From NCBI GenBank assembly GCA_019347945.1, contig JAHWKK010000015.1, positions 1 to 64,000 of the forward strand: DNA of 64,000 bases, written 5' to 3'. Every line of letters begins with the position of its first letter. Positions within the stretch are counted from its first letter, which is position 1. Position numbers and translations under genes: made by a program. The notes under the pieces were generated by a model. That model was not told where the DNA came from. It searched no databases and saw only the letters and a program-made list of their open reading frames with translations. This stretch comes from Acidobacteriota bacterium. GTDB lineage: Bacteria > Acidobacteriota > Thermoanaerobaculia > Gp7-AA8 > JAHWKK01. This document shows positions 3,713 through 57,812 of this stretch, one piece after another.

Positions 3713-6451
3713 GTGAAAACCAGATTTCTCAGTTACGGACTTGCATGTCTGCTGATGGTTTTCGGCGGGACCGCGGCGTTTGCGCAGGGGTTCCAGGTCG
3801 GAACCGTGAGCGGCCAGGTCCTTGATGACACCGGGGGGGCACTGCCCGGGGTCACGGTCGAGCTGATCAGCGAAGACCGGGGTACGACACGTGTGGAGCT
3901 GACGGATTCGCAGGGCGATTTCCGATTCTCGCAGGTGCCGGTCGGAACCTACACGGTCGTGATCAGTCTCACCGGGTTCCAGAACCGCACGCTGACCGGC
4001 AACCGGGTCTCGGCCGACAAGAACACGCGACTCAATGTCACGCTGCCGCTGAGCGCGATCCAGGCATCGATCGTGGTCACGGGCGAAGCGCCGGTCGTCG
4101 ACCGGACGAATCCGGCAGTCGACACTTCGATTCCGGAGGAAACTTTCGAGAAGCTTCCGCTTGGGCGTTCGTATCAGACGCTGATGACGAGCGCACCGGG
4201 CGTTGTCGGCAGGGGTAACGCGAATGTCAACGGCGCACTGCGCAACAGCAACGTGTTTCTGTTCGACGGAGTCGACACGACGGACACGACGACCGGTACT
4301 TTCGGCGCCAACATGAACTTCGAGGCGATCCAGGAGGCTTCGATCATCACTGCTGCGGCCTCGGCGGAGTACGGACGCGCGACGGGCGCGATCGTCAATG
4401 TGATCACCAAGTCGGGCACCAACGAGCTCGAGGGATCGGCCAAGTACATCATCAACAACGATGACTGGGACGAGCAGAACAAGACGACCCATCCGCTCAC
4501 CGGTGAATCCTTCGCACGCACCAAGAACGACGTCGACAACATCACTTACACGGGAACCCTCGGCGGCCCGCTCTGGAGAGATCGTCTGTGGTTCTTCGGC
4601 GCCTATTCGACCAACGAGCAGCCCCGCGGCCCGGTCCAACTCCCGATCTCGGGTGATGAGTACACCTACACGGTCGACTTCACGACCCAGAACTACCGGC
4701 TGACCACGCAGCTGACCCCGACCCAGAACCTCTGGGTGAAGTTCGATGACGACCCGGCAGGAACCTTCCTGGTCCGGTATGGCAGACCGGCCGAGATCGA
4801 AGCGCTCACCGCGCAGGATCAGGGTGGCGAGCGTTGGGCCGGTCAGTACACCGGCATCCTCGGTGACAATTTCTCGTACGAGCTCATGTACGGCACCAAT
4901 GACAGTACGATCACGGTCGGGTCGCATGCGGCGGACAGATCGCTGACCAACGGCGCGCTCCATTTCGATCTCGCCACGAATCGCTTCTACAACGGGCCGC
5001 TCTTCGAGGGCTTCGTGGATCGCCCGAGAGAGCAGGCTGTCGGAGCGATCTCGTATTTCACCCAGCTCGGCGATAACGATCACGAGCTGAAGTTCGGAGC
5101 GGACTGGCAGAAGCTGAACTCGAGCAACTTCTTCGCGCCTTCCAACGGGCAGATGTTCATCGACGAATCATTCGATCATGTGAACAGGACGTTCGTTCCG
5201 CTGCTCCGTCGCGACTATGCGATGGCTCCTTCGACGTCGTCGGGCGAGCTCCTGGCTTTTTACGCCCTCGACAAGTTCGAAGTCGGAGACCGGCTCTTCT
5301 TCAATCTCGGTGTTCGTTACGAAGAGCAGACGGGTGAGAGCGACATCGGACGTCAGACCGTCGACACGCAGACGATCTCGCCACGACTCTCCGGCAGTTA
5401 CGACCTGATGGGCGACGGCCGCGCGCTGGTTCGAGGAACCTACGGTCGCTACTACCAGTCGATCATTCAGGACTTCAGCGACAACTTCGCCGCGGTCCCT
5501 CAATACCGGAATTTCACCGAGTACATCTGGAATGGAACCGAGTTCGTATTCCGGCGCGAAGTCGATTTTTCGGGTAGTTCGCTCGAAGCGAATCTCGACC
5601 TCGAGCCGACCTACGTCGACGAGATCACGGTTGGTGTTCAGTATCAGCTCGCCGGTGATTTCGGAGTCGGCGCTCGCTATCTGTGGCGCGAATGGGACGA
5701 TCTTCAGGACGATATCGTCGACTTCGACGCTGAAGGCAACGACATCCTCCGGTTCGTCAACAACCCGGACGCGACGAGAGAATACAACGGTCTGCAGCTC
5801 ACTCTCGAGAAGCGATTCTCGAGGAACTGGGCGGCGATCGCGAACTACACGATCTCCGAGTCGAGCGGTAACTACTATTCGGACTTCGAGGGCGCTCTTC
5901 TCGACTATACGAATCAGCAGTGCGAGGTTCAGGACGAAAACATCGGCACCGTACCGTGTGCCGACGTCAATTCCCCGAGCCGGCATGAGGGGAACCCCGA
6001 ATTCGACCGCGATCAGTTCAACCTGCTGGGGCTTTACAGCCGTCCGGTCGGGCCGGTGAACCTGAGCGTCGGAACCAACGTCCAGTGGTCGGAGGGCATT
6101 CGGTTCGCGCGACGGTCGCTCGCCGAAGTCCTGGTTGGTGGCGAATCGACTGGCACCACCTATAGCTACTTCTACGAAGATCCGGGCTCGAGGCAGCTGG
6201 GCAGCATCTGGACTGCGGATCTTTCGCTCGAAGGTACCTACATGATCGCCGGGCTTGCCGAGATCGGCGTCAAGGCAGAAGTCTTCAATGTCACCGACGA
6301 GCAGAAGCAGGACGACGTCACGGAGACTCTCTTCTGCACCGATGACACCTCGCTCTGCCAGGAGAGACGTGAAGAGTTCGGTCTCGGACTCACCCGTGGC
6401 GCCTACCAGTCGCCCCGTTCGTATCGGGCTTCGGTGGTCCTGCGGTTCTGA
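3713..6451 (+). CDS. Oar-like TonB-dependent receptor with carboxypeptidase-regulatory domain
   Basis: A 912-residue outer membrane receptor. It has a signal peptide ending AAFAQ, an N-terminal carboxypeptidase regulatory-like domain (about residues 28-105, GTVSGQVLDDTGGALPGVTV), a plug domain (about 120-235, with VVTGEAPVVDR and AEYGRATGAIVNVITKSGTN) and a long beta-barrel ending VVLRF. These Oar/SusC-like receptors import large ligands or export proteins using TonB energy. The GTG start is favoured by AAGGAGG six bases upstream. A strong terminator follows at 6484-6516, so it is a single-gene unit. No hydrolase gene that would reveal a substrate is next to it. Confidence 0.93.
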   Translation: MKTRFLSYGLACLLMVFGGTAAFAQGFQVGTVSGQVLDDTGGALPGVTVELISEDRGTTRVELTDSQGDFRFSQVPVGTYTVVISLTGFQNRTLTGNRVSADKNTRLNVTLPLSAIQASIVVTGEAPVVDRTNPAVDTSIPEETFEKLPLGRSYQTLMTSAPGVVGRGNANVNGALRNSNVFLFDGVDTTDTTTGTFGANMNFEAIQEASIITAAASAEYGRATGAIVNVITKSGTNELEGSAKYIINNDDWDEQNKTTHPLTGESFARTKNDVDNITYTGTLGGPLWRDRLWFFGAYSTNEQPRGPVQLPISGDEYTYTVDFTTQNYRLTTQLTPTQNLWVKFDDDPAGTFLVRYGRPAEIEALTAQDQGGERWAGQYTGILGDNFSYELMYGTNDSTITVGSHAADRSLTNGALHFDLATNRFYNGPLFEGFVDRPREQAVGAISYFTQLGDNDHELKFGADWQKLNSSNFFAPSNGQMFIDESFDHVNRTFVPLLRRDYAMAPSTSSGELLAFYALDKFEVGDRLFFNLGVRYEEQTGESDIGRQTVDTQTISPRLSGSYDLMGDGRALVRGTYGRYYQSIIQDFSDNFAAVPQYRNFTEYIWNGTEFVFRREVDFSGSSLEANLDLEPTYVDEITVGVQYQLAGDFGVGARYLWREWDDLQDDIVDFDAEGNDILRFVNNPDATREYNGLQLTLEKRFSRNWAAIANYTISESSGNYYSDFEGALLDYTNQQCEVQDENIGTVPCADVNSPSRHEGNPEFDRDQFNLLGLYSRPVGPVNLSVGTNVQWSEGIRFARRSLAEVLVGGESTGTTYSYFYEDPGSRQLGSIWTADLSLEGTYMIAGLAEIGVKAEVFNVTDEQKQDDVTETLFCTDDTSLCQERREEFGLGLTRGAYQSPRSYRASVVLRF

Positions 6452-32553: not shown

Positions 32554-35500
32554 TCAGAAGATCAGGCGGACCGCGGCCTGGTACTGGCGGGGCTGCCCGG
32601 TGAAGGAGTTTTCACGACCGAAATTCGGGTTTCTCGTGAAGTTCCAGCCCGAGCTGCTTCTGAAGGAGCCGCTGAAGTAGGTCTGGTTGCTGAACGAAAC
32701 GACCGTATTGTCTTCGTTGAGCGCGTTGAAGACCTCGCCGATGAGCTCGATACCGAAGTCGTTCCAGATCCGAAACTCCTTGCTGAGGCGAATGTCGAGC
32801 GTCGAAAAGTTCGGCTGCTCGAACGAGTTGCGCTCCATGATCGTCGCGCCGCGCTCGGCAAGGAATGCGGCGAGCTCCTCTCGGCTCGATCCGTTGGCCT
32901 GAGTCAGATCGATGATCGCCCCGTCGCGGTCGACGAAGACCGGCGTGTTGACGCCGACCTGGAACAGGCCGTTGAGCCCGCTCCTTCCGGCGTTTATCTC
33001 GGCGGTGTACGGCGAGCCGCTATTCCAGCGATAGATGCCGGAGAGATTGATGCCGAATGGAAACTCATAGGTGCCGGAGAGCACGGCGCGATGCTCGATG
33101 TTGTAGTCCGCGCGGCCTTCGCTGAGCTCCGGATTGAAAGGATCGTAGCTGCGCGAGCTCGAGGTGGAACGCTCATTCGAGTCCTGGTCGATGGCTTCCG
33201 ACCACGTGTAGTGAGCGAGCCACGAGAAGCGGCTGTCGCTGGTTGCGTATTTGCGGGTTGCGAGAGTGATCGACTCGTAAGTTCCCTCGGCGTCGCTGAC
33301 GTGCATCTTGATGTCGCGGAACGTCGGGTACGCGGCACCGCTCCGCCCGGCGGAGTAGGCCGGTAGATTGCCGTAGACGATGCCCGTCGGAACGGCGTTG
33401 ATGTTGACCAGTCTCTGCTGGTTGGTCAGGTCGGCGTAGACGCCTTCGATCGAGACGCTGTACATCCGGCCGAGCTGCTGCTCGTAGCCGAGGCTCATCC
33501 GCGTCGATTCCTGGTTCTCGAGCTCAGGAGAGACCAGCGTCAGATCCGAGGCCGACCGGACGAACTGCGCGAACTCGTCCTCGGGCACAATGTTCGGATA
33601 CGTGGGACATGGGTTTCTGCTGCAGATCAGCACGATCCGGTTGTAGTTACCCGAGATCTCGGCGAGCGGCGCAGCGTACAGAATCGATGGAATCGGTGTG
33701 AAGTACCTTCCAACCCCGCCGCGGATGACCGAGCGGCCATCAGCACGAAGGTCATATGCGAAGCCGAACCTCGGTGCGAAGTTGTCGTCGTCGTTGTTGA
33801 AGTTGTCGACGAACTCCGGAAACTGCGGGAATGCATTGCGATGCGGGGTCGGGATGTCCTGGAGGTCATACCGCAGACCGAAGTCGAGCGTGAGGTTGTC
33901 GTTGTATGTCCAGCTGTCCTGAATGAAGGCTCCCCAGGCGTTGTAATCGAACTCGGTCACCCCATCGGTGGGACCGCTGCCCTGGTCGAGACGGGAGGGG
34001 TTGTTGGCGAGAAAATCCTCGACCGAATCGAAAAAGTACTGGCCGGCATTTTCGCGGGGAAACAGATTGTAGATGTCGGTGGTGAGGTACTCGACCCCGC
34101 CCTTGACGTAATGGTTGCCCATGAGCCAGGACGCCTTCTCCTTGATCTGCAGTTTCTTCTCGTCGGTTCGGTTGGGGAGAAACTCGCTGCGCCCGAATCG
34201 GATGTCGAACGGTCCCAGATCGATGCGGGTCTCGGGCAGATTCATCTCGAGGGCGTTGATGGGACGCTCCTCGACACCGTACTGGACGATCAGCTGATTG
34301 AAGATCGAGTCGGTCAGCACGGAGTCGAGCTCGAGGACCGTGGAGTTGACGGTGTTGAACTCATCTCCCTGATTCGAGAGCATTCGCGGTGACTCACTGG
34401 GGGAGTTGTGGTAATCGGCGTAGTTGTGCCGGAGGGAGAAGTGATGGTTGGAGCCGATGTTGGCGTCGAGCTTCGCGAGATACGTCTCCTGGTCGTCGTC
34501 GCTCGCGTACTGGAACTGCTGGTCCAGAGCGCCACCGAGAAGCTGATCGATTCTGGATGTCAGCGCGTTCTGCGTGGCGGGATCGAGGTTCTGAAAACTG
34601 CTGCTGAGACGGAAGTCGTTCGCCGTGATCTGCTCGTTGATGTCCTGAAAGTCTGCGGTGAGAAAGTAGTGGAGAACATCCGTCATGATCGGACCGCCGA
34701 CGGCGACGCCGTACTGGTCGACGTCACGGGCGTCGAAGAAGTCGACGACGTTCTGACCGTCGATCGTGGCCTCTCGCTCGTCGGCCCATGAGGCGTCGCG
34801 TTTGTAGTAGAAAAGCTGCCCTTCCATCTCGTTCGTACCGCTCTTGGTGATCGCGTTGACCGTCCCGCCTACGCCCCGGTTGTACTCGGCGCTGTAGGTG
34901 GAGCGGATGACCTGCATTTCCTGGATAGCGGCCTGCGAGAAAACGAAGGGCGCTTCGGTGCCTCCACGCTCTTCACCGAAGAAGTCCGAGTTGGCCTCGG
35001 CTCCGTCGATGTTGAAATCGGTCGCGATGCCACGTGCTCCGTTGAGGGCGACGCGACCGCCGAAGGCGTCCGTCACACCGGGCGTGAGCGAGACGAGATC
35101 CTTGAAGTCTCGTCCGAGAATCGGCAGATTCTGGATCTGCTCTTCACTCACCGAATATGTGACATCGGACTCCGTCGCGTCCACGACCGGAGCTTCGGCC
35201 GTGACGATGATCTCCTCGGAGAGTTGGGGATTGAGCGTGAGCGAAACGTCAGTGGTGGCGCCTAGCCGGACCATGACGTTCTCGCGCGTCTCCTGTCCGA
35301 GCCCGACCAGCTGCGCCGAAACCCGATACGAGCCGGGAGGTAGAAGGGCGAGGATGAAGTTTCCGTCGACGTCGGTGTAACCGACTCGCGACAGACCGGT
35401 GTTCTGATTCGTGGCCGTGACGGTGACGCCGGGCAGCGGCGATCGGCTCGAGTCGGTGACCTTGCCGCGAATCTCACCGGAGGTCTGGCTCGTCTGCGCG

Positions 35501-35562
35501 AGAGCAGGAATGGTGAGAACAGCGCACAGCACGGCCATGACCGAGAATTTGAACCTGGACAT
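32554..35562 (-). CDS. Oar-like TonB-dependent receptor with carboxypeptidase-regulatory domain
   Basis: A 1002-residue outer membrane receptor. Signal peptide ends PALAQ; residues about 32-115 are the carboxypeptidase regulatory-like domain (IRGKVTDSSRSPLPGVTV); the plug follows with IIVTAEAPVVDATES, NLPILGRDFKDLVSLTPGV and YNRGVGGTVNAITKSGTNE; the barrel ends AAVRLIF. The ATG at 35560-35562 has AGGAGG 6 bases upstream; further upstream in-frame codons lack a ribosome site. It is similar in plan to the receptor at 3713 but clearly a different paralogue. It ends in a strong terminator. The ligand is unknown. Confidence 0.93.
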   Translation of the reverse strand: MSRFKFSVMAVLCAVLTIPALAQTSQTSGEIRGKVTDSSRSPLPGVTVTATNQNTGLSRVGYTDVDGNFILALLPPGSYRVSAQLVGLGQETRENVMVRLGATTDVSLTLNPQLSEEIIVTAEAPVVDATESDVTYSVSEEQIQNLPILGRDFKDLVSLTPGVTDAFGGRVALNGARGIATDFNIDGAEANSDFFGEERGGTEAPFVFSQAAIQEMQVIRSTYSAEYNRGVGGTVNAITKSGTNEMEGQLFYYKRDASWADEREATIDGQNVVDFFDARDVDQYGVAVGGPIMTDVLHYFLTADFQDINEQITANDFRLSSSFQNLDPATQNALTSRIDQLLGGALDQQFQYASDDDQETYLAKLDANIGSNHHFSLRHNYADYHNSPSESPRMLSNQGDEFNTVNSTVLELDSVLTDSIFNQLIVQYGVEERPINALEMNLPETRIDLGPFDIRFGRSEFLPNRTDEKKLQIKEKASWLMGNHYVKGGVEYLTTDIYNLFPRENAGQYFFDSVEDFLANNPSRLDQGSGPTDGVTEFDYNAWGAFIQDSWTYNDNLTLDFGLRYDLQDIPTPHRNAFPQFPEFVDNFNNDDDNFAPRFGFAYDLRADGRSVIRGGVGRYFTPIPSILYAAPLAEISGNYNRIVLICSRNPCPTYPNIVPEDEFAQFVRSASDLTLVSPELENQESTRMSLGYEQQLGRMYSVSIEGVYADLTNQQRLVNINAVPTGIVYGNLPAYSAGRSGAAYPTFRDIKMHVSDAEGTYESITLATRKYATSDSRFSWLAHYTWSEAIDQDSNERSTSSSRSYDPFNPELSEGRADYNIEHRAVLSGTYEFPFGINLSGIYRWNSGSPYTAEINAGRSGLNGLFQVGVNTPVFVDRDGAIIDLTQANGSSREELAAFLAERGATIMERNSFEQPNFSTLDIRLSKEFRIWNDFGIELIGEVFNALNEDNTVVSFSNQTYFSGSFRSSSGWNFTRNPNFGRENSFTGQPRQYQAAVRLIF

Positions 35563-35718
35563 GTTGCCTCCTGAAAAGGGTTTGGGGATGATTGGAATCT
35601 TCATGAGAATCGTCGAGGCTGACAGCCTAATGCCGACCAGCTCGAACATCAACTATTTTGATCGTTTTTGGTAATGCGCGCCTGCGCTGGCTGTGAATCC
35701 GATGTAAAAAAATCATCG

Positions 35719-37218: not shown

Positions 37219-40020
37219 ATGGCTCGCCAAATTCTCGTCATCGAATACGAACCCCGCTACATTCAGCGAGCCGAGGATGCCCTGGTTGCCACCGACATTA
37301 CGTCTCACGTCGCCAGGTCGGGCGATGAAGCGGGCAGGCTCATGGCGAGCAACCGCTACGACCTCGTCGTACTCTCGACGATCATACCGAGATTCAGTAC
37401 TGCCGATCTCGTCAAGTCGGTCAGACAGAACCTCGGACCGTCCGTTCCTATTCTCTTCACCATCAGTGGGTACAGCGGATCCGACCCGAAGACGGACGCG
37501 CAGAAGCTCGGTGGGCAGGGCCTGCTGCTCAAGCCCTATACTGTCGACGACTTCTCCCGCAAGCTCAAAGAGATGCTCCCCGACTCCTCGGCTGAGGAAG
37601 CGCCGTTCGAGACCGCACCCACGGTTCAGATGTCTTCCGAGGAGCTGTTTGGTGATCTGGTCGACCGGCCCACGCTGAGCAAGGAACCGGACCCCTCAGC
37701 GCTGACCGAAAAGGTCCGCAAGGTCTCAGTCGAAGACGTCGACAAACTTCTGGAGGATACGCTCGCCGGAGTGCGAATCCCGACGCTGAGAAAGCGTGCC
37801 CCCGCGGCCGAGCCTCCCAAAGAGTCTCCCGCTCCGGCTCCGGCCGATGACGTCGACAAACTTCTCGAAGACACTCTGTCGGGCCTCGAGGGTCGGAAGA
37901 AGAAGGGGCCGCCGGAATCGCCGGCTCCGTCTCGGCAGACCGGTCCGGAGCACGACCTCCCTCCGTTTCCCGAAGCCACTGCGGAGCCAGCGAGCTCGGG
38001 AGAAGCCGGAGGCCCCGTTTCGTCAGATCCGAACCAGTTCGGCCAGTACAAACTGATCGAGAAAATTGCCACCGGAGGTATGGCGGAAGTCTGGAAGGCG
38101 CGGATGCACGGTCTGGAGGGCTTCGAAAAGATCGTTGCGATCAAAAAAATCCTTCCCCATCTCTCGGACAACGAGGAATTCATCGAGATGTTCGTCGATG
38201 AAGCCAAGCTCGCAGCTCAGCTGAACCACAACAACATCATCCACATTTACGATCTGGGCAAGCTCGAGGAATCGTGGTTCATCGCGATGGAGTACATCGA
38301 CGGCTACGACCTGAAGAGCATTCTGAAAATGGCGCGCGAGCGCGTACACCCGCTGCCGGTTCCACTTGCACTTTTCGTTGCGTCGAAGATCTGCTGGGCT
38401 CTCGATTACGCTCATCGGAAGAAGGGCTTCGACAACGAAAAACTCGGGCTCGTTCATCGCGACGTCTCCCCTCAGAACGTTCTGATCTCGTCGGAAGGCG
38501 ACATCAAGTTGTGTGATTTCGGGATCGCGAAGGCGGCGACCAAGGCCTCCCACACTCAGGCGGGAGTCCTCAAGGGAAAGCTGCAGTACATGTCGCCGGA
38601 GCAGGCGTGGGGCCGTCAGATCGACCATCGGTCCGATCTTTTTGCGACGGCTGTCGTGCTTTTCGAAATGCTCGCCGGGCGGAAGCTCTTTCAGGGCGAC
38701 AGCGACATCTCGGTACTCGATCAGGTTCGTGAAGCTCAGGTTCCGGCTCCTTCGATGTACGAGGAGGATGTCACTCCGGAAATCGACGAGATCGTCCTCA
38801 AGGGGCTTGAAAAGGATCCGGAGGCCCGGTACCAGACGGCGGGGGAGATGGCGAGGGCCATCGATCAACAACTATTCAACTTCAAACCGGCCCCCACCAA
38901 CCTCGATCTCGCAGCGTGGATCGACGGGCTCGAGCGATCCGCCAGGGTTCCGACCGAAGAGCGCCCATTGCCGCTCCAGCCGGTCGAGACAAGATCCTCG
39001 GCTGAATCCGAGAGCTCCGAGCCGCGTGAAATCGTTACGCCGGCTTCGCTGATCACGCCGGCGCCCGAAAAGGTCGTGACCGAGGCCGCAGCCGAGCCGG
39101 AAGAGGTCGTGATCATCGATGAGCCTCCGCGGAAAAGAAGCGCGGTGCCGTGGATCGCGGCCATCCTCCTGATCGGGCTCGCCGGTGCGGTGGGAGCCTG
39201 GTACGTGATGGCCCCCTCGCGCGATGCAGGCGAACAGGCGCCGGCCTCCGAGATCGCCGACCGCGGCGATGTCCCCGCGCCGGTCGGTATCGTGCAGCCC
39301 ACCGAAACGGCCGGAACGATTGCCCTGACCGGGGAAGGTCTCGAAGAGGAAGAGCTCGTCCCCGACGAGCAGGAGCTGGAGCCGGAGCTCGACGCTGCGG
39401 ATCTGGCGAGGATCGATCAGGAGGTGAGGGATCGGCTCGCGGCGGACCGGCGAGACGCTGAAGAGCGACAGAGACGACAGAGGGAGCAACTCGACCGGGA
39501 ACGGGAGGCAGCAGCGCGCGCTTCCGAGCCTCCCCGGCGGACGGCACAACCAGATCGGCCGACCCCGACTGCGACTCCTCCCGCGACCACGACCCGCTCC
39601 ACGCCGCTTCCCGAGGAAGGAGTGCCGGTGAGCACGTCTCCGGAAGAGCCCCGTACGGTGGAGCCCGATCCGCCTCCCCCGACGACGCGGGCCGAAGAGG
39701 CGACCCTCGAGGTCAGGACCGGCGACTTCGTTCCTCCCGGAACCCCGGGTCTCGTCGAGCCCGAGCTTCTCAGTCTGGGGAGAAAAGATTATCCGGCGCT
39801 TGCGAAGAGGCTTCGGGTCGAGGGAATCGTGATCGTTCGCGCGCTGGTCGCTGAGACTGGTGAAGTGCTCGAGGCCGAAGTGCTGCGAGGCATCAGCCCC
39901 AATGTCGGCCTGAACGAGGCAGCCGAAACGATGGTGCGGACGGGAAGGTTCCGTCCCGCAACCAAGGACGGCGTGAAGGTGCGGGCCTACAAGACGGTGA
40001 CCGTACCCTTCAGACTCTGA
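37219..40020 (+). CDS. Pseudo-receiver/Ser-Thr protein kinase/TonB C-terminal fusion
   Basis: A 933-residue inner membrane protein. Residues 1-120 form a receiver-like domain with the acidic pair as E9/E11 and Ser at position 53 where the phosphoacceptor Asp should be. A linker holds two copies of DVDKLLEDTL. The kinase domain (about 274-540) has a glycine loop IATGGMAEVWKA, Lys309, HRDVSPQN (Asp415) and DFG (Asp433), so it should be active. One membrane helix follows (about 642-664), then a Glu-rich coiled and Pro-rich periplasmic stretch, and a TonB C-terminal domain over the last 85 residues (YPALAKRLRVEGIVIVRALV). It could link cytosolic phosphorylation with TonB-type contacts to outer membrane receptors. 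The ATG at 37219 lacks a strong ribosome site. Confidence 0.88.
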   Translation: MARQILVIEYEPRYIQRAEDALVATDITSHVARSGDEAGRLMASNRYDLVVLSTIIPRFSTADLVKSVRQNLGPSVPILFTISGYSGSDPKTDAQKLGGQGLLLKPYTVDDFSRKLKEMLPDSSAEEAPFETAPTVQMSSEELFGDLVDRPTLSKEPDPSALTEKVRKVSVEDVDKLLEDTLAGVRIPTLRKRAPAAEPPKESPAPAPADDVDKLLEDTLSGLEGRKKKGPPESPAPSRQTGPEHDLPPFPEATAEPASSGEAGGPVSSDPNQFGQYKLIEKIATGGMAEVWKARMHGLEGFEKIVAIKKILPHLSDNEEFIEMFVDEAKLAAQLNHNNIIHIYDLGKLEESWFIAMEYIDGYDLKSILKMARERVHPLPVPLALFVASKICWALDYAHRKKGFDNEKLGLVHRDVSPQNVLISSEGDIKLCDFGIAKAATKASHTQAGVLKGKLQYMSPEQAWGRQIDHRSDLFATAVVLFEMLAGRKLFQGDSDISVLDQVREAQVPAPSMYEEDVTPEIDEIVLKGLEKDPEARYQTAGEMARAIDQQLFNFKPAPTNLDLAAWIDGLERSARVPTEERPLPLQPVETRSSAESESSEPREIVTPASLITPAPEKVVTEAAAEPEEVVIIDEPPRKRSAVPWIAAILLIGLAGAVGAWYVMAPSRDAGEQAPASEIADRGDVPAPVGIVQPTETAGTIALTGEGLEEEELVPDEQELEPELDAADLARIDQEVRDRLAADRRDAEERQRRQREQLDREREAAARASEPPRRTAQPDRPTPTATPPATTTRSTPLPEEGVPVSTSPEEPRTVEPDPPPPTTRAEEATLEVRTGDFVPPGTPGLVEPELLSLGRKDYPALAKRLRVEGIVIVRALVAETGEVLEAEVLRGISPNVGLNEAAETMVRTGRFRPATKDGVKVRAYKTVTVPFRL

Positions 40021-43025: not shown

Positions 43026-44081
43026 GTGTTCTTCTCAAAGAGCAAAAACCTGGTCGGTCTTGATATCGGGTCCTCGGCGATTAAGCTCGTCGAGCTGAAA
43101 GAGAAAAAGGCCGGAAATTTCCAGCTCGTCAAAATCGGGTTGGAATCGCTGTCTCCGGAGGCCATCGTCGACGGCTCCATCATGGATTCCTCTCTGGTCG
43201 TCGAGACGATCTCCCGTCTGGCGAGCGAGCAGGGGGTAAAGAACCCGAATTTCGCCACCTCCCTGTCGGGTCATTCGGTGATCATCAAGAAGATCACTCT
43301 TCCTGCGATGTCTCCGGAGGAGATGGACGAATCGATCCAATGGGAGGCGGAGCAGTACATCCCCTTCGACATCAATGACGTGAGTCTGGATTACGTCCCC
43401 CTCGATACCGGGATGGGCGACAACGCGGACGTCATCCTGGTCGCCGTGAAGAAGGACAAGATCGGCGATTACACGTCGGTGATCAGCCAGGCGGGGAAAA
43501 ACGCGGTTCACGTCGACGTCGACGCATTCGCCACGCAGAACTGCTACGAGTACAACTACGGGGGGACCGGGGCCGGCACCGTCGCCCTCGTCAACATCGG
43601 CGCTTCGGTGACCAATGTGAACGTCCTCGTCGGGGGGCAGTCGCAGTTCTGGAGGGACATCACCTTCGGGGGGAACCAGTACACCGACGCCATCCAGAGG
43701 GAGCTGAACCTTCCTTTCGAGTCGGCGGACGCTCTGAAGAGAGGTCAGCCGGCCGGTGAGTACACGATCGAGCAGGTGATTCCGGTGCTGAACTCGGTTT
43801 CCGAAGACTTTGCGGGCGAGCTTCGGAAGACCCTCGACTTTTTCACGGCAACCTCGGGCAACGCCGGAGTGGACGAAGTGATGCTCTCCGGTGGCGGGGC
43901 CTCGGTACTGAACCTGGAGTCGATTCTTTCGGACAAGTTCGCCTTTCCGGTCCACACCCTGAATCCATTCCGGAGTATCCAGGTCAACGAGGGGGATTTC
44001 AATCCGGAGTGGCTGTCGGAGGTCGGGCCGAGTATGGCTGTCGCAGTGGGGCTGGCCTTGAGGAAGCTGGGTGACGCATGA
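43026..44081 (+). CDS. pilM: Type IV pilus assembly protein PilM
   Basis: A 351-residue cytosolic actin-like ATPase fold protein that binds the N-terminus of PilN and connects the pilus motor to the inner membrane alignment complex. GLDIGSSAIKLVEL at the N-terminus is the nucleotide-binding phosphate-1 motif; LVNIGASVTNV and the MLSGGGASVLNLE segment are the corresponding later motifs. GTG start at 43026 behind a GGGGTGAAGGG stretch. First gene of the pil operon; its stop overlaps pilN by 4 bp. Confidence 0.95.
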   Translation: MFFSKSKNLVGLDIGSSAIKLVELKEKKAGNFQLVKIGLESLSPEAIVDGSIMDSSLVVETISRLASEQGVKNPNFATSLSGHSVIIKKITLPAMSPEEMDESIQWEAEQYIPFDINDVSLDYVPLDTGMGDNADVILVAVKKDKIGDYTSVISQAGKNAVHVDVDAFATQNCYEYNYGGTGAGTVALVNIGASVTNVNVLVGGQSQFWRDITFGGNQYTDAIQRELNLPFESADALKRGQPAGEYTIEQVIPVLNSVSEDFAGELRKTLDFFTATSGNAGVDEVMLSGGGASVLNLESILSDKFAFPVHTLNPFRSIQVNEGDFNPEWLSEVGPSMAVAVGLALRKLGDA

Positions 44082-44704
44082 TCAGGATCAATCTCGTCAG
44101 CGAGGGACGCGGTCCGCGGGGTGGCGGTGCAGCATCGGCCGTCGGCGGCGCGATGACCGAGGCCGCTCCGGGCGACCTCAACAACAAGGTGCTCGTCGGC
44201 ATCGCGCTGGTCGGGCTGATCCTCGCCGGCGCGTACTGGTTCCTCTTCTGGAGCCAGAGGAACCGCCTCGAGAACCAGGCCGTGGAGCTGCGGGCCGAAG
44301 CACAGGCTCTCGAGAAGATCATCCGGGAAGTCGAGCAGTTCAAGCAGAGAAAAGCGGACCTCGAGCTTCGGATCAATCTGATCAATGACCTCAAGAAGAA
44401 CCAGAAGATGCCGGTTCGAGTCATGGATCGTGTCAGCCAGAATCTTCCTGACCTGCTCTGGTTGACCAGCATGCGCGTAACCGGGACGCAGGTGGAAATC
44501 GAGGGGCAGGCGCTCAACACTGCTGCCGTTGCGGTGTTCGTCGAGAACATCAAAGGGGATCCTCTCTTCGCTGAACCGAACGTAAGGAGAATCTCGCGGC
44601 AGGGCAACACTGAGGTCTACCAGTTCCAGATGGGATTCACATTCTTTCTTCCGCAGCTTCCCGAAGAGGCGGAACAAGGAGAAATCGTGGAGCCGGCGGC
44701 GTGA
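44078..44704 (+). CDS. pilN: Type IV pilus assembly protein PilN
   Basis: A 208-residue bitopic inner membrane protein. It starts with MIRINLV, the conserved PilM-binding INLL-like motif, but has a Gly/Ala-rich insertion of about 25 residues before the single helix (about 38-58). A coiled coil and a ferredoxin-like periplasmic domain follow (MRVTGTQVEIEGQALN). It partners PilO in the alignment complex. ATG overlaps the pilM stop. Confidence 0.92.
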   Translation: MIRINLVSEGRGPRGGGAASAVGGAMTEAAPGDLNNKVLVGIALVGLILAGAYWFLFWSQRNRLENQAVELRAEAQALEKIIREVEQFKQRKADLELRINLINDLKKNQKMPVRVMDRVSQNLPDLLWLTSMRVTGTQVEIEGQALNTAAVAVFVENIKGDPLFAEPNVRRISRQGNTEVYQFQMGFTFFLPQLPEEAEQGEIVEPAA

Positions 44705-44720
44705 CGGGAGGGGTTGAAAA

Positions 44721-45314
44721 GTGACGGGTCTCGAAGGAAAACCTCTCTACTACGGCCTGCTGGTGGGAGCTCTGATCGCCGGCATGCTCGTGGCGTTGGT
44801 GCACTTTTTCCCGGTCGCCACCCTCAAGACCGAGATCCAGACTCTCGAGGACGAGATCGACACCCTCGAAACAAGGATCGCGGAGGGGAGGGCAGCCGAG
44901 AGAGAGCTTCCGCAATTTCGGGACGAGGTCGCACGCCTCGAGCTGGAGCTGGAGCGTCTGAAGAAAATTCTTCCCTCCCAGCGCAACACCGAGGAGATCA
45001 TCAAGAAGGTCAAGGCGCTCGTCGATGAAGGAGACTTCGTCCTCAAGAATCTCAACTTCCCCGAGTTCAACGCGGTCGAGAGCGATATTTACATGGAATG
45101 GCCGATCTCGGTCGCGCTCGACGGTCGTTACCATGACCTCGCCATACTCTTCAACAAGCTCGGCAACTTTTCGAGAATCATGAACGTCGAGAACATTCAG
45201 ATCGACGCTCTCAGCCAGCAGGACGAGCGAACGGTGTCGAGCCAGTTCACGGCGAAGACGTTCGTGCTGATCGAAGAGACCGGGAACGAAGAAGGAACGC
45301 CGGGAGGAGAATGA
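44721..45314 (+). CDS. pilO: Type IV pilus assembly protein PilO
   Basis: A 197-residue bitopic inner membrane protein: a short cytosolic end, a helix at about 10-30, a long coiled coil (about 35-85) and a ferredoxin-like domain with the typical ISVALDGRYHDLAILFNKLGNFSRI segment. It forms a heterodimer with PilN. GTG start 16 bp after the pilN stop with GGGAGGGG upstream. Its stop overlaps pilP by 4 bp. Confidence 0.93.
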   Translation: MTGLEGKPLYYGLLVGALIAGMLVALVHFFPVATLKTEIQTLEDEIDTLETRIAEGRAAERELPQFRDEVARLELELERLKKILPSQRNTEEIIKKVKALVDEGDFVLKNLNFPEFNAVESDIYMEWPISVALDGRYHDLAILFNKLGNFSRIMNVENIQIDALSQQDERTVSSQFTAKTFVLIEETGNEEGTPGGE

Positions 45315-45832
45315 CGATGAATCGACTCAGGTTGCTGGCGTTTCTTCTGGCGATCCTTCTGATTCCGGCCGGCCTGGCTCCGGCACAGGAAGCGACATCG
45401 GCCGAGCCCGAATCGGAGCAGGAGTCCGCTCCGGAAGACGTTCTTCAGGATCTCGAGAGCATTCTGGAAGAGGATGCGGTCGATACCTATCGTTACGATC
45501 CCCAGGGGCGCCGCGATCCTTTCCGATCGCTGATTCGCGGACGTGAGTCGGCCGTTCGAACCGATGTTCCTCCGGGCGTGCCCGGGTTTCTGATCGACGA
45601 GATCGACCTCCAGGGCGTGATTCGCTCCCGATCGGGGCTCGTGGCGACGATCAAGGGCCCGGACAATATCGGCTACACGATCCGGCCGGGCGACAAGCTT
45701 TACGATGGAGAAGTCCTGAGGATCACGCCGACGGCGGTTTACTTCCGGCAGGAAGTCAATGATCCGACACTGATCGAACGACAGCGGGAGGTCGTCAAGG
45801 AACTCGACAACCGGCCCGGAGGACGTGGCTGA
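45311..45832 (+). CDS. pilP: Type IV pilus assembly protein PilP, without lipobox
   Basis: A 173-residue periplasmic protein with N-terminal hydrophobic signal (to about residue 26), an acidic disordered region with YDPQGRRDPF, and the beta-domain LQGVIRSRSGLVATIKGPDNIGYTIRPGDKLYDGEV typical of PilP; it links PilNO to the secretin. Most PilP proteins are lipoproteins, but here the signal ends APAQ and no cysteine exists in the protein, so it is soluble or helix-anchored. Confidence 0.9.
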   Translation: MTMNRLRLLAFLLAILLIPAGLAPAQEATSAEPESEQESAPEDVLQDLESILEEDAVDTYRYDPQGRRDPFRSLIRGRESAVRTDVPPGVPGFLIDEIDLQGVIRSRSGLVATIKGPDNIGYTIRPGDKLYDGEVLRITPTAVYFRQEVNDPTLIERQREVVKELDNRPGGRG

Positions 45833-45851
45833 TGTCTTGGAGGAGCGTGTG

Positions 45852-48407
45852 ATGGTGGAGGTGGGAATGATGAGGATGAAGCTCCAGTACGTTCTCGGTG
45901 GAGCCCTGATGCTGGCGGCGTTCGGCTGCTCGTCAGCGGGCGTGACTCCGGATGATCCGTCGAGCCCGGTCAGGGCGAGCGCCGTTTCCGGCGAGTCGGT
46001 CGAAAAACCCGTGCTGACGTCGATCAGGTCCGAGCTCGTACCTTCGCCGCGGCTCGTTTTCAATACGACCCAACACCCTTCGTACACTTCCTACAGCCCC
46101 CAGGCCGACGTTTTCGTCGTCGACCTCCCCTCGGTGACTCGAGCGGCCGGACTCGAGATCCCCTCGAATCTTCCTCCGATCGTGGCTTCTCTCGCCGCGG
46201 AAGAGGTTTTCGAGCTCGGGACCCCGATCACACGGATCACCGTCCGCCTGACCGGCGATCTCGATCCGAGCGTCTCGACCGAAGGAAAAAACCTCGTCAT
46301 CAGTCTCGGGGAAACCGATCCTGTGGCAATTGCGGATGAGCCTGCCGCGCAGTGGGGAGATGACGAGGGCGTTCGACTTGCCGAGCCCGTCGTGACGAGC
46401 GAGGCGCTGCCGACGGCGGAACCGGTCGTACCGATTCTCGACGAGCCGCTCGAGGATTCGAGCGAGCCAGCCATCGCTACCGTCACGGAGCCTCGGCTCG
46501 TCATCGTTCCCGACCAGATGGCTTCGAATCTTCTGGGAGTCAAAGTCGAAACCACGAGCGAAGGTCTCGTCGTGAAGCTCCGAACCGATGGACGCGTCGA
46601 TTACAAAAGTTTCACGCTGCCGGACCCGGCCAGGATCGTGGTCGACCTGAACGGACTGGTCAACCGGTCGGAGCGCTCGGTGATCTCGACGGGTAGCGCC
46701 TCAGTTCAGCGGGTTCGGGTAGCGCAATTCAGCAGTGATCCCGATCCGGTCGCGCGCGTCGTGCTCGATCTCAAGGGAGACCATCCGTATACCGTCCGGC
46801 AGGCGGCCGAGGGGCTGGAAGTGGTGATGTCCGACGCCGCCCGTCCAGTCCGAACGATGCTTGCAAGCGAGATCGACACGGACCTCCCCGCAACTCGCGT
46901 GGCCCCGAAAATGACGGCGGCGGATCTGCCGAGGGAAGCGCCGGAAGATGTCTTCAGAGTGTCGGATGCAGCGGGGGTCGAGCAGGATGCGACTCACCTG
47001 GTTTATGCGCCGCAGACGGTCCGCGAACCGGAGCCGCCGCCGCAGGAGCGGCCAATCGACACCAGCGTGATCCGGAGCACCGTCGAGCAGGAACCGGTCG
47101 ACGACGTGTTCCAGCAGGGCGTCACTCCGGGCGCGACGGTCGAGGGCGGTACGGTTCTCCTGCCGGGAGAGAGCCGGGAAGTCGGCGCGATGGAGCGGAT
47201 CTTCACCGGCGAGCCGATCGACATCACGTTCACCAACGCGGACCTGATCGACGTGTTGAGACTCTTCAGCGAGATCACCGGGTTGAACATTGCGATCGAT
47301 CCGGAAGTGCGGGGGACGGTCACGGTCCGGTTCGAAGGAGTTCCGTGGGATCAGGCGCTCGATCTGATTCTCCGGCAGAACGACCTGACCTACACGTACA
47401 GCGGCAACGTCATGCGGATCGGAACGATCAACCGCCTGACGGCCGAGGCCGTACGGACACGTGAGCTCGCCGAAGAAGAGCGAAACAACGTGCCTCTCCG
47501 GACTGTCATCAAATACCTTTCATATGCACGGGCACCCGACGTCCAGTCGATTCTCAGTGCCCTCAGCACGCCGCGCGGTACGATCATCGTCGACGCGCGT
47601 ACCAATCAGTTGATTATCTCCGAGGTCCCGGACGTGTTGCAGACGATGTTCGATCTGATCGAGACGATCGATGTGGCAACGCCCCAGGTCATGATCGAAG
47701 CGAGAATCGTCGAAACGACGAAGAACTTCGCGCGTCAGCTCGGAATCACCTGGGGCTTCAACGGGACTCTCGACCCGGCACTCGGCACGGGGACTGGCCT
47801 CACGTTCCCCAACCGGGTGGATGTCACGGGCGGGCCATTCGACTTCGGAGCTGGCAATCCCGTCCTCGATCTGAGCTTCATGGATGTGCTGGGCACCTTC
47901 GATCTCGATGTTCTCCTCACGGCAGCCGAAAGCGAGGGACTGGTCAAGGTGGTCTCGGCGCCGAAGGTCACCACTCAGGACAATCAGGCCGCAGAGATCC
48001 AGAGCGGTGTCCAGATTCCCGTGCAGACGCGCGTGAACTTCACCACGACCGTCACCTACATCGACGCGACGCTCAGGCTCTCGGTCACACCGCAGGTCAC
48101 GGCAGTCGGAACGGTCATCATGGACATTCAGGTTCAGAAGACGGAGCCGGCGCTCGGTCTGACTGTAGTCGGCGGGACGAACTCGCCGCTGATTACCAGA
48201 CGAGCCCAGACCAAGCTGATGGTGCGTGACGGCGGAACGACCGTGATCGGTGGTATTTACCAGGCCACCGACAACAATGCGCAATCAAGAGTTCCGTTCC
48301 TGCACCAGATTCCGGTGCTGGGCAACCTGTTCAAGAACAATGACATCTCTTCGAGGCACGACGAGCTGCTGATCTTCATTACGCCGCGGATCGTGAGGGT
48401 ACAGTGA
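45852..48407 (+). CDS. pilQ: Type IV pilus secretin PilQ, with lipoprotein signal
   Basis: An 851-residue outer membrane channel for the pilus. A lipobox-type signal (LMLAAFGC) precedes two AMIN-like regions (about 60-140 and 215-305; FTLPDPARIVVDLNGLVN). A long acidic, Pro-rich linker leads to the secretin N0/N1 domains (INIAIDPEVRGTVTVRFEGVPWDQALDLIL; TIIVDARTNQLIIS) and the secretin core (ending VPFLHQIPVLGNLFKNNDISSRHDELLIFITPRIV). ATG 45852 is used because GGAGGAG is 6 bases upstream; ATG 45867 and an upstream GTG overlapping pilP are alternatives. Having the lipid anchor on PilQ rather than PilP is unusual. Confidence 0.93.
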   Translation: MVEVGMMRMKLQYVLGGALMLAAFGCSSAGVTPDDPSSPVRASAVSGESVEKPVLTSIRSELVPSPRLVFNTTQHPSYTSYSPQADVFVVDLPSVTRAAGLEIPSNLPPIVASLAAEEVFELGTPITRITVRLTGDLDPSVSTEGKNLVISLGETDPVAIADEPAAQWGDDEGVRLAEPVVTSEALPTAEPVVPILDEPLEDSSEPAIATVTEPRLVIVPDQMASNLLGVKVETTSEGLVVKLRTDGRVDYKSFTLPDPARIVVDLNGLVNRSERSVISTGSASVQRVRVAQFSSDPDPVARVVLDLKGDHPYTVRQAAEGLEVVMSDAARPVRTMLASEIDTDLPATRVAPKMTAADLPREAPEDVFRVSDAAGVEQDATHLVYAPQTVREPEPPPQERPIDTSVIRSTVEQEPVDDVFQQGVTPGATVEGGTVLLPGESREVGAMERIFTGEPIDITFTNADLIDVLRLFSEITGLNIAIDPEVRGTVTVRFEGVPWDQALDLILRQNDLTYTYSGNVMRIGTINRLTAEAVRTRELAEEERNNVPLRTVIKYLSYARAPDVQSILSALSTPRGTIIVDARTNQLIISEVPDVLQTMFDLIETIDVATPQVMIEARIVETTKNFARQLGITWGFNGTLDPALGTGTGLTFPNRVDVTGGPFDFGAGNPVLDLSFMDVLGTFDLDVLLTAAESEGLVKVVSAPKVTTQDNQAAEIQSGVQIPVQTRVNFTTTVTYIDATLRLSVTPQVTAVGTVIMDIQVQKTEPALGLTVVGGTNSPLITRRAQTKLMVRDGGTTVIGGIYQATDNNAQSRVPFLHQIPVLGNLFKNNDISSRHDELLIFITPRIVRVQ

Positions 48408-50936: not shown

Positions 50937-50974
50937 GGGGATGGCCGTCCTTTTGTGGCGGCCATCCCCTTTGT
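50937..50974 (+). terminator. Hairpin behind the pil operon
   Basis: An 11-bp perfect stem, GGGGATGGCCG with CGGCCATCCCC, 11-base loop, followed only by CTTTGT-like sequence, so termination strength is uncertain. It ends a few bases before the ATG of the TPR gene and could alternatively lower translation of that gene. Confidence 0.55.
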
Positions 50975-50978
50975 ACTT

Positions 50979-51833
50979 ATGGCCAAGGCTGAAGACACTC
51001 CCCGAATCCAGGCGCTCCGGGCGAAACTCTCCGCTGACCCGTCTTCGCGCGTTTTCTACCAGCTCGCGGAGGAGCTCCGGAAGCTCGAGCGCTTCGAGGA
51101 CGCCGAGGAAGTCCTGCGAGGCGGGATCGAGCATCACCCTGAATACCTCTCCGGATTGCTCAGCCTCGGGAGGGTGCTCGTGGGGCAGGGGAAGTTCGCC
51201 GAAGGTATCCAGGTGTTCGAAAAGGCTCTCACGAAGGATCCCCACAACGTAGTCACTGCCCGGCTCCTTGCCGACGCTCATTTTGAAGTCGGCTCGAATC
51301 TCGAAGCGGTCAAGCGATACAAGCTCGTACGGGCGCTCCATCCGCAGGACGAAGAAGTCCATGAACGGATCGAGATCCTTGAAAAGCGGCTGAAAGAAGA
51401 TCAACCCACGGCATCCGAGGCGACGGTGCCCGCGGAGCCAGTCGTTGGCGATGCGGATGCCGAAGAAGCGGTCGATGCGTCGGGAACGAGCTCCGATACC
51501 GCGGACTCGGAATCCGCCGCGACAGAGGACTCAACGGTCACCATGGGCGATCTCTATGCCAGTCAGGGACACCCCGACGAGGCGCGAGAGACGTACCGGA
51601 GCGTTCTGGAGAGACAACCGGCGAACGATCGAGCCGAGGCACGTCTTCAGCGGATGGACCATGAGGATCTGAAGGCGAAGGGAGGTCAGGCGGAACTGGA
51701 ATCAGGAACGGGGCTGGAAGACTCGGCGAGGCCATCGGCAGGCGAGCCCGCGCGAGACGACGCGCGCACCCAGCGTCTGGAGGAGTGGCTGGCGAAAATG
51801 AAAGGACGGGCTGACCAGAGTGTTCGAGGATGA
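50979..51833 (+). CDS. Tetratricopeptide-repeat protein
   Basis: A 284-residue soluble protein without signal peptide. Residues about 25-130 hold three TPR units (SSRVFYQLAEELRKLERFEDAEEVL; HPEYLSGLLSLGRVLVGQGKF; NVVTARLLADAHFEVGSNLEAV), then an acidic disordered linker, and another TPR-like unit (TMGDLYASQGHPDEARETY). The end, LEEWLAKMK, resembles that of TPR partners of roadblock proteins. It overlaps the roadblock/LC7 gene by 14 bp, supporting a joint role. ATG 50979 is preferred because the frame upstream lies in the hairpin. Confidence 0.85.
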   Translation: MAKAEDTPRIQALRAKLSADPSSRVFYQLAEELRKLERFEDAEEVLRGGIEHHPEYLSGLLSLGRVLVGQGKFAEGIQVFEKALTKDPHNVVTARLLADAHFEVGSNLEAVKRYKLVRALHPQDEEVHERIEILEKRLKEDQPTASEATVPAEPVVGDADAEEAVDASGTSSDTADSESAATEDSTVTMGDLYASQGHPDEARETYRSVLERQPANDRAEARLQRMDHEDLKAKGGQAELESGTGLEDSARPSAGEPARDDARTQRLEEWLAKMKGRADQSVRG

Positions 51834-52173
51834 ACTTCGGCGGTTGGTGGACAGCGTACCTGGGGCGCTCGCCTCGTCATTGACCGATCTCGACGGAATC
51901 CCGGTTGCGTCGACGAATCCGGGTGGTGTGCCTCTCGACCACATCGCCGCGGAGCTGACCAGCGCCTTTCGGAGCGTGCAGGTCACCAACACCGGCATGG
52001 ATATCGGCGTTCTGGCTCAACTGATGCTCATGACCGAGAAGTACGCCATGTATCTGTCGAGAGTGACGGAGGAGTATTACGTTTTGGTGGTAATGTCCCC
52101 GGAAGGAAGTCACGGAAAGGCGAGATTCGAAATGAAAAAAGTCCGGCACGCTCTCGCTGACGAACTGGTGTGA
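51820..52173 (+). CDS. Roadblock/LC7 domain protein
   Basis: A 117-residue protein that is a single roadblock/LC7 domain: [23 protein letters not shown] and a following LTSAFRS helix, with a [14 protein letters not shown] end. Related proteins (MglB) regulate small Ras-like GTPases in polarity and pilus-based motility. No GTPase gene is in the window. GTG start at 51820 overlaps the TPR gene. It is followed at 4 bp by accB. Confidence 0.85.
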
Positions 52174-55503: not shown

Positions 55504-55529
55504 TATCTCCAGCACCGGTGGAGGCTCAA

Positions 55530-57812
55530 ATGAAACGTCTTACTCTGGTTCTGCTCGCGCTCACATCCCCTCTCTGGGCTGATGACGATCGCCATCAGTC
55601 CTTCATCGCTTACGACGTGGGTGGGACGATTGTCAGCGGGGAGGATGGACGTGACATCGAAGTCGGTGTCAATACGCCCCTGTTTTCCGGAGACCGCCTC
55701 GCCACCTCCGCTCGGGGGAGAGTCGAAGTGAGGCTTTCGGACGGCAACGTTCTGGCCGTGGACCGCGATACCGTGGTCGACCTCGTGTCGGTGCTCGGCG
55801 ACTACGAGATGGAGAGCGACGAGACGATCATCGGGCTGACTTTCGGCAAGGTTCTCCTTCACCAGACCGGCCGACGATCGGAGCCGGTGAGGCTCGATAC
55901 GCGATTCGCGACGTATCGACTCGATGACTCCGGCATTCTTGCGGTCGAGACTTCGGATCGGGGCGATTCCGTTGCCGTAATCGGAGGGATCGTTAATCTG
56001 AGTCTTCCGACCGGGCGTTATCAGGTTCGCACGGGGGAGCGGATCAGGGTGGATGAACGGGGAATCTACGATGAGGCGGGGCTCGCGCGCGACGGCATGG
56101 ACGATTTTGAGCGGTGGTACATGCGTCGGAACGATGATGGTCGACGCTCCTCGCGATATCTCGGCGACCGTCTGGCCTATGCGGATCCCCTTCTCGATGC
56201 GTATGGACGCTGGGTGTACGTCCACGAGTACAGCAACTGGGTGTGGCGGCCGACGGTGTCGGTCGGATGGCGGCCGTATTACAGCGGATACTGGCACCGC
56301 GGGCGACGAGGTGGGCTGGTCTGGGTATCGTCCGAGCCCTGGGGCTGGGTGCCGTATCACTACGGGTCGTGGGCCCACAGCCCGCTCTACGGTTGGGTCT
56401 GGATCCCGGGCAACCGCTATTCGCACGCCTGGGTTTACTGGCTGTGGGGACCGAGCTACGTCGGTTGGGCACCGAGGGGCTACTACGACTGTTTCCAGCC
56501 ATATTTCGGCTGGGCATTCAACCGCGGTCGGAGGATTTCGGTCGGTATCGGATTTGACGTCTGGGGTCGCGTTCACGTCTCCGATGGGGATCTGAATCAG
56601 TGGACTCTGGTACGACCGGATCATCTGGTGTCGACGCGAGTCGATCGCGCTGCATTGACGACCGATGCGATTCGTGAGCGTCTGCAGCGGGATGGGAGGG
56701 GCGCCACGTTCACCGGTGGCAACCCGCGACTCGGTGAAGAAGACTTGAGGAATCCGGCCGAGGCGGTCGAGCGGATCGCTCGTCGCACGGTTGGAGGGGG
56801 TACCGGCACTGTCGGATCGGGGCCCACGTCGGATGTAACTCGGTTTTTCCGGCGTGACCCCGATCTGCCAGAATCCGATCGGGACCGGATCGCGCGAGCG
56901 TTGGATCGAGCGACGCCGCGAGCGAGCGACTCGCCGCGAACCGCCGGCGAGACCGCGACGACTCCGTCATCCGGAGGGGTGAGAGGTCCTTCGATTCAGC
57001 GGCGCGTACCCTCCGGGTCCGGGGAAACATCGGATCGGATCACGCGGACGCCGGCTCGAAACGTGTCGGGAAGTGTCGACGAATCGAGGCGAGGAGCCAT
57101 CTCGCGACCGGCGCCTGAGCGACCGGCGCCCGTGACACCTGAGCGTCCGGCGATCGTGACGCCCGAGCGTCCGGCGACCGTGACGCCAGAGCGTCCGACT
57201 CGCCAGCGGGTGACGGAACCGGACAGTCGTTCCAACGCGGGCGAAACTCCCAGACAGCTGGCGGTTCCGCGCCGGGTGATCGATTCGATCGAGTCGGCGC
57301 GGGAGTCGCGCCGTCGTGCAACGCGGTCGTCCGAGGGTTCCGATCAGACCACTCGAAGGGCTCCGGCATCGGACGACTGGCGACGAAGGCCCGCCGCGAG
57401 CAGTCCCGAGGCGGATCGGACGCCGGCGAGAACGAGGACCCCGGATCGGACGCCGGTGCGAACGAGGACCCCGGATCGAGCTCCGGTGCGTGCTACTCCG
57501 GATCGGACACCGGTCCGAACGACGACCCCGGATCGGACACCGGTACGTACGACGAGTCCGGACCGTTCGACCAGGACGAGCGCGCCGCGAGCGACGAGTC
57601 CGACGCGGAGCCGAAGCGTGTCGAGGCCAGAGCGGAGCTCGTCGTCATCGACTCGGAGCTCGTCGTCATCGACTCGGAGCTCGTCGTCATCGACTCGGAG
57701 CTCATCCTCAGGGGATAGATCATCGAGCTCGACTCGATCCTCTTCCTCCTCGAAATCCTCGAGCTCTTCGTCGGGCAGAGTGTCGCGGAGATCCAAACCG
57801 GACGATCGCTGA
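55530..57812 (+). CDS. FecR-domain/DUF6600 exported protein with repetitive basic tail
   Basis: A 760-residue secreted protein. After a signal peptide (cleavage near LWA) residues about 25-170 form a FecR-like domain (VNTPLFSGDRLATSARGRVEVRL). Residues about 200-370 are a Trp/Tyr/Gly-rich DUF6600 region (repeated WGWVPYHYGSW and WVWIPGNRY-type segments). The rest is disordered: three copies of an 8-residue PERPxxVT unit, four to five of TPDRTPVRT, and three exact SSSSSTR units, ending RRSKPDDR. Similar proteins are common in Acidobacteriota; role unknown, probably cell-surface or outer membrane-associated. ATG 55530 with GGAGG 7 bases upstream. Confidence 0.85.
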   Translation: MKRLTLVLLALTSPLWADDDRHQSFIAYDVGGTIVSGEDGRDIEVGVNTPLFSGDRLATSARGRVEVRLSDGNVLAVDRDTVVDLVSVLGDYEMESDETIIGLTFGKVLLHQTGRRSEPVRLDTRFATYRLDDSGILAVETSDRGDSVAVIGGIVNLSLPTGRYQVRTGERIRVDERGIYDEAGLARDGMDDFERWYMRRNDDGRRSSRYLGDRLAYADPLLDAYGRWVYVHEYSNWVWRPTVSVGWRPYYSGYWHRGRRGGLVWVSSEPWGWVPYHYGSWAHSPLYGWVWIPGNRYSHAWVYWLWGPSYVGWAPRGYYDCFQPYFGWAFNRGRRISVGIGFDVWGRVHVSDGDLNQWTLVRPDHLVSTRVDRAALTTDAIRERLQRDGRGATFTGGNPRLGEEDLRNPAEAVERIARRTVGGGTGTVGSGPTSDVTRFFRRDPDLPESDRDRIARALDRATPRASDSPRTAGETATTPSSGGVRGPSIQRRVPSGSGETSDRITRTPARNVSGSVDESRRGAISRPAPERPAPVTPERPAIVTPERPATVTPERPTRQRVTEPDSRSNAGETPRQLAVPRRVIDSIESARESRRRATRSSEGSDQTTRRAPASDDWRRRPAASSPEADRTPARTRTPDRTPVRTRTPDRAPVRATPDRTPVRTTTPDRTPVRTTSPDRSTRTSAPRATSPTRSRSVSRPERSSSSSTRSSSSSTRSSSSSTRSSSSGDRSSSSTRSSSSSKSSSSSSGRVSRRSKPDDR
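57635..57697. repeat. In-gene 21-bp tandem repeat
   Basis: Three identical copies of GAGCTCGTCGTCATCGACTC plus one G encode SSSSSTR units in the tail of the FecR/DUF6600 protein; a fourth partial copy follows. Being a multiple of three, it can change copy number without a frameshift. Confidence 0.92.

Follow-up and report, generated by a model that had tools for sequence, protein, structure and literature searches.

In the 64-kb window analysed here (the whole stretch of 64,000 nucleotides), one gene encodes a 933-residue protein, named here RSTK, which by sequence comparison and structure modelling combines, in this order, a degenerate receiver, a Ser/Thr kinase with its catalytic residues in place, a single membrane helix without the histidine that couples TonB to ExbB, and a domain of TonB C-terminal fold (TonB_C), and which is paired with a 76-residue protein, named here X, encoded immediately downstream (Table 1). 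RSTK is a variant of the PknB-type bitopic Ser/Thr kinases with a new architecture; to our knowledge, no kinase with a TonB-type ectodomain has been characterised, and a search of open-licence papers found no kinase–TonB fusion of this design. As for its function, there is about an even chance that RSTK is a sensor kinase signalling from the envelope to the cytosol, with TonB_C as a passive binding tether and X as its working partner. An earlier note on this DNA had recognised the kinase and the TonB part; the receiver-like domain, X, and the missing histidine of the membrane helix were absent from it.

Table 1. RSTK, its parts, and protein X (positions are those of the window)
Feature	Residues	Position	Strand	Basis
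RSTK (receiver-like / Ser-Thr kinase / membrane helix / TonB_C)	933 aa	37219..40020	+	one unbroken frame; full-length orthologues
Degenerate receiver	5-114	37231..37560	+	Pfam Response_reg; model; phospho-Asp replaced in relatives
Mostly disordered linker	139-223	37633..37887	+	recurring alignment motifs; short helices in model
Conserved linker helices	SSEELFGDL (~139-147), VEDVDKLLEDTLAGV (~171-185), DDVDKLLEDTLSGL (~210-223)			family alignments and model
Ser/Thr kinase domain (PknB-like RD kinase)	277-539	38047..38835	+	Pfam; PDB sequence matches; invariant catalytic residues
Single membrane helix without His	646-664	39154..39210	+	hydropathy; 647-664 helical in model
Periplasmic helix/coiled coil	726-768	39394..39522	+	model
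Pro-rich linker (25% Pro)	769-835	39523..39723	+	composition; low model confidence
TonB_C domain	856-933	39784..40017	+	Pfam; genome search; model; fold search
X, small helical protein	76 aa	40155..40385	+	directly downstream of RSTK

The gene boundaries and the single intact frame had been given correctly in the earlier note. The Pfam Pkinase match (residues 277–539) scores 134.9 bits, above its curated cut-off, and in a PDB sequence search mycobacterial PknB heads the solved chains (best E 4e-46). Lys309, Asp415, and Asp433, on which the claim of an apparently active kinase had been based, are the right residues and belong to a set that is invariant in all 39 aligned full-length relatives, comprising K309, E328, H413-R414-D415, N420, D433-F434-G435, and T446 of the activation loop. 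The complement of a Hanks-type kinase (the Lys of VAIK, the αC Glu, HRD, Asn, DFG, and an APE-type Pro-Glu) is complete and identical in these relatives; judged by its residues, the domain is an active-type Ser/Thr kinase.

The one membrane helix of the earlier note is placed at almost the same residues by hydropathy (646–664) and by the model (647–664). Three of the 15 residues before it are basic, against one of the 15 after it, a bias that fits an N-in/C-out topology. The following linker, described as Glu- and Pro-rich and periplasmic, indeed contains 16% Glu and 14% Pro over residues 665–835, the proportion of Pro rising to 25% in its final part (769–835). The full-length model is confident for the receiver-like fold (1–120), the kinase, the membrane helix, the periplasmic helix, and TonB_C, with the linkers at low confidence. 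A segment of the type EVxxRLAAERxxL is kept in the coil across the taxonomic order of the window, and Glu/Arg-rich segments resembling this coil are also present in relatives lacking TonB_C.

At the N terminus, residues 1–120 form alternating β and α elements (block pLDDT 92 or more), and the assignment of a receiver fold combines this high-confidence model with a Response_reg match just above the Pfam cut-off (residues 5–114, 31.4 bits against 30.2). Of the 39 aligned relatives, 38 have another residue in place of the phospho-acceptor Asp (Ser or Thr in 31) and one has Asp, making phosphorylation at that position unlikely in most members; a canonical phosphorelay through this domain is unsupported in them for the same reason. 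The pseudo-receiver would rather serve in protein interaction. Nothing on point about kinases with pseudo-receivers was found in the open-licence papers searched.

The C-terminal domain was identified as TonB in the earlier note, which had also called for structure prediction, and both Pfam (TonB_C at 856–933, 48.4 bits against a cut-off of 24.6) and AlphaFold (mean pLDDT 95.3) agree with that assignment. In the PDB fold search, each of the 17 best matches is the C-terminal domain of TonB or of a TonB homologue, several being receptor-bound. RSTK shares with canonical TonB this C-terminal fold and a Pro-rich periplasmic linker, but differs from it in its length of more than 900 residues, its large cytosolic part, a mid-protein helix devoid of His, and a window without exbB or exbD. 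In the structure of the Ton motor, the contacts of TonB with ExbB include Ser16 and an essential histidine, His20 (PMC12215075). The corresponding Ser-X3-His motif was not found in the helices of the RSTK family, none of the 105 members with a helix having a His in it, in contrast to all 27 canonical TonBs encoded nearby. RSTK is therefore unlikely to be an energised TonB, a candidate role that is unsupported throughout the 105 helices, and its TonB_C is best read, from these sequences, as a passive envelope-sensing tether and not as an energy transducer. The sensor reading is supported by this domain anatomy with helices lacking the coupling His, as well as by the rank of receptor-bound TonB chains among the best fold matches.

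In such a sensor, the N-terminal part, from the receiver-like domain through the linker helices to the active RD-type kinase, would lie on the cytosolic side, presumably together with X, the single helix would span the inner membrane, and the coiled coil with the Pro-rich tether would bear the TonB-fold domain towards the outer membrane. There TonB_C would passively bind an envelope partner, most likely a contact of canonical TonB, for instance a TonB-dependent receptor or ExbD, and less likely peptidoglycan. Binding would change dimerisation or geometry via the coil and the helix, which in turn would alter autophosphorylation of the activation loop (T446) and kinase output; the direction of signalling would be from envelope to cytosol, as in PASTA kinases. 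The suggestion of the earlier note that the protein senses the envelope and relays its state to the kinase fits the topology, whereas an energised TonB is improbable and TonB_C, as described below, is not the constant core of the family.

A precedent for this direction of signalling is provided by the PASTA kinases of PknB/Stk1 type, which have in common with RSTK an active kinase fold with its motifs, a juxtamembrane region, one membrane helix, and an extracytoplasmic domain. RSTK differs from them in carrying TonB_C in place of PASTA repeats (for which Pfam gave no match in RSTK), in its N-terminal degenerate receiver, in its constant partner X, and in residing in a Gram-negative envelope; the NCBIfam equivalog model for Stk1-PASTA scores it at 295, below the cut-off of 450. 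The similarity raises an alternative that we consider unlikely, namely that TonB_C is an anchor to peptidoglycan or to the envelope in general and that RSTK acts as a cell-wall-sensing kinase of PASTA type with another ectodomain. The closest solved kinases being PknB, and the single membrane pass with an extracytoplasmic tether, are in keeping with it, as is the link between TonB C-terminal dimers and peptidoglycan proposed previously (PMC9022066); that binding is, however, a mere proposal in the cited work, and the neighbours of RSTK indicate the Ton system and not cell-wall synthesis.

The nearest described design to RSTK is, by analogy of domain order, GltG of Myxococcus xanthus, which consists of an FHA domain, a membrane helix, a Pro-rich stretch, and TonB_C, interacts with the motor protein AglR, and serves gliding motility (PMC3169522). 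In both proteins, a domain of Ser/Thr-phosphorylation signalling is followed by one membrane helix, a Pro-rich stretch, and TonB_C; GltG differs in having FHA instead of a kinase and in its AglR-linked gliding role; for RSTK, a link to an ExbB/TolQ-type motor protein is drawn from gene neighbourhood in relatives. A second family of the phylum (L100-L105) presents a kinase fold, a membrane helix, a coil, and TonB_C in the order seen in RSTK, and the genome of the window itself encodes such a kinase-fold–TonB_C protein without HRD and DFG (L191:4505-6610, minus strand, contig C24). In this family, unlike RSTK, no receiver or X was found, and the loss of HRD and DFG makes its members probably catalytically dead pseudokinases. 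In a short-domain tree of weak resolution, the TonB_C domains of this family and of the RSTK family are interspersed, with canonical TonBs separate from both.

In a first set of 20 relatives, the match to RSTK extends to residue 933 in 17, and in two others (G019 and G020) the C terminus is also TonB_C on inspection; no orthologue was found in G018, an 86% complete genome. Close orthologues are present in 78 of the 247 genomes of the phylum sample, and the kinase in 81 of the 111 genomes of the class. In a scan of named genomes, the matching records are titled Thermoanaerobaculia, Holophagae, Thermoanaerobaculum, Candidatus Sulfomarinibacter, and Aminicenantes, i.e., Acidobacteriota, with one titled Deltaproteobacteria; the full form is present in L141 and L142, whose records bear the title Thermoanaerobaculum sp. 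Full-length orthologues are present in many families of Acidobacteriota, in many genomes and on independent contigs, which rules out an artefact of assembly or fusion; their kinase and TonB parts are fused, not separate genes, across the class as well as in numerous further families of the phylum. The earlier note had suggested looking for the same domain order across Acidobacteriota and Myxococcota. It is present in many families of the former. In the phylum to which L186 belongs (its record is titled Myxococcota bacterium), 113 genomes were covered, and the matches to the family profile, among those listed, end before TonB_C, although a weak second segment could have escaped this search.

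By profile, TonB_C was scored in 82 of the 109 RSTK-family kinases with a complete C terminus, one of those counted without it (L081) being partly masked and having an end that resembles TonB_C. In a kinase-domain tree rooted on L186 (a quick tree with some long branches), TonB_C is found at the deepest branches, with about eight changes of state. Judged by these data, TonB_C is ancestral in the family and was lost several times later. The forms without it have a membrane helix and a coil, a helix only, or are soluble, and nearly all of them keep X. As far as gene content tells, TonB_C is thus not the constant core of the family, being repeatedly lost whereas X stays.

X lies directly downstream of the kinase on the same strand in 105 of the 109 distinct loci with enough downstream sequence, at a median gap of 37 bp. 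It has a single match in the genome of the window and is found in 80 of the 111 class genomes; both genes occur in 76 of these, the kinase only in five, X only in four, and neither in 26, so that co-presence or co-absence extends to 102 of 111 (Fisher p 2e-16, a descriptive value, as related genomes are not independent). X reaches the cut-off of no Pfam family and represents a strongly conserved helical protein family of Acidobacteriota. A conserved phosphosite in X is unsupported, no Ser or Thr being conserved in all its sequences in an alignment judged by eye, and a promoter and terminator scan of the RSTK–X junction gave nothing usable. We infer that X acts on the kinase in the cytosol, as its regulator or adaptor. 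In one metagenome-assembled genome (L022 / L109, just 3′ of the kinase), X is seemingly split by a frameshift, reflecting either a sequencing error or a real loss.

The constancy of X downstream of the kinase, the concordance of the two genes, and the ancestral TonB_C support the sensor reading, which is in turn weakened by the dispensability of TonB_C in several clades retaining kinase and X. The latter could mean that the essential unit is cytosolic, with kinase and X regulating a core process, possibly one connected with the neighbouring accD (acetyl-CoA carboxylase), and with TonB_C as an optional input or a relic. X is more constant (105/109) than TonB_C (82/109), soluble forms exist, and 62 of the 105 loci having more than 1.5 kb downstream show accD next, in the same orientation; both the deepest branches and most families nevertheless have an intact TonB_C, which speaks for long-term selection, and accD does not adjoin the kinase in the taxonomic order of the window or in family f32, which lacks TonB_C and includes several single-contig genomes. 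We regard such a unit as improbable.

The two large receptors noticed earlier in the window, at 32554-35652 (-) and about 3713-6451 (+), are both TonB-dependent-receptor-like, and, as had also been remarked, ExbB and ExbD have no match within the 64 kb; ExbB-type genes adjoin other TonB genes elsewhere in the genome. Outside the taxonomic order of the window, the common arrangement is DUF4388-TonB-ExbD-ExbD-ExbB-RuvC-YebC divergent from kinase-X-AccD, and 25 of the 59 loci having more than 4.2 kb upstream show ExbB with TonB genes (the cluster ExbB-ExbD-ExbD-TonB) on that side, in divergent orientation. Within that order, the divergent neighbour is rho, beyond which a TonB-dependent-receptor-like gene is found in 10 of 10 testable loci; in the window, this receptor is one of about eight Oar-like proteins of the genome. 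These neighbours add support to the sensor reading, which is weakened by the intervening yebC and ruvC, by eight of the 25 ExbB-adjacent loci in which the kinase has no scored TonB_C (some cut by a contig end), and by the window having no Ton motor genes nearby. As yebC and ruvC, or rho, intervene, proximity to Ton genes may reflect inherited gene order, and the link of RSTK to the Ton system drawn from the neighbourhood in relatives is suggestive only.

A cluster of ExbB-ExbD-ExbD-TonB followed by a DUF4388 (PatA-like) protein stands beside ruvC and yebC in many Acidobacteriota (e.g., L142:1348-4604, minus strand). Elsewhere in the window, pilM-pilN-pilO-pilP-pilQ follow relA/spoT at 43026-48407 (+), with genes for a TIG-domain protein, a TPR protein, and a roadblock/LC7 protein downstream of them (50955-52173), and a protein with FecR and DUF6600 domains and a long Ser/Arg-rich tail is encoded at 55518-57812 (+).

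A narrower form of the sensor reading, in which RSTK is dedicated to the state of TonB-dependent receptors or of the Ton motor, its motor-uncoupled TonB_C docking to receptor TonB boxes or ExbD and its occupancy setting the activity of the kinase with its partner X, is put forward tentatively and is rather doubtful. The same TonB fold, receptor-bound best matches, and ExbBD-TonB neighbours would also suit a signal running outwards, in which the kinase, controlled from inside by the pseudo-receiver and X, would either change the TonB_C tether that it carries or phosphorylate components of the Ton system, thereby competing with canonical TonB, or modulating it, at receptors or ExbD. The cytosolic part of RSTK being the most conserved, and retained upon loss of TonB_C, adds to that case; however, the helices lack the coupling His, and in the clades that retain kinase and X without TonB_C the output cannot depend on TonB_C, leaving an outward signal with a low probability.

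Taken with X, RSTK suggests, on the strength of its gene pairing and domain order, a putative dedicated route for envelope signals into the cell. The natural forms with and without TonB_C allow comparative tests of TonB_C, X, and the link to the Ton motor, and RSTK without the ExbB-coupling His would show the reuse of TonB_C as a passive sensor. If true, a kinase sensing receptors or the Ton motor would report outer-membrane transport directly by phosphorylation, in a manner distinct from sigma-factor signalling of the FecA-FecR type.
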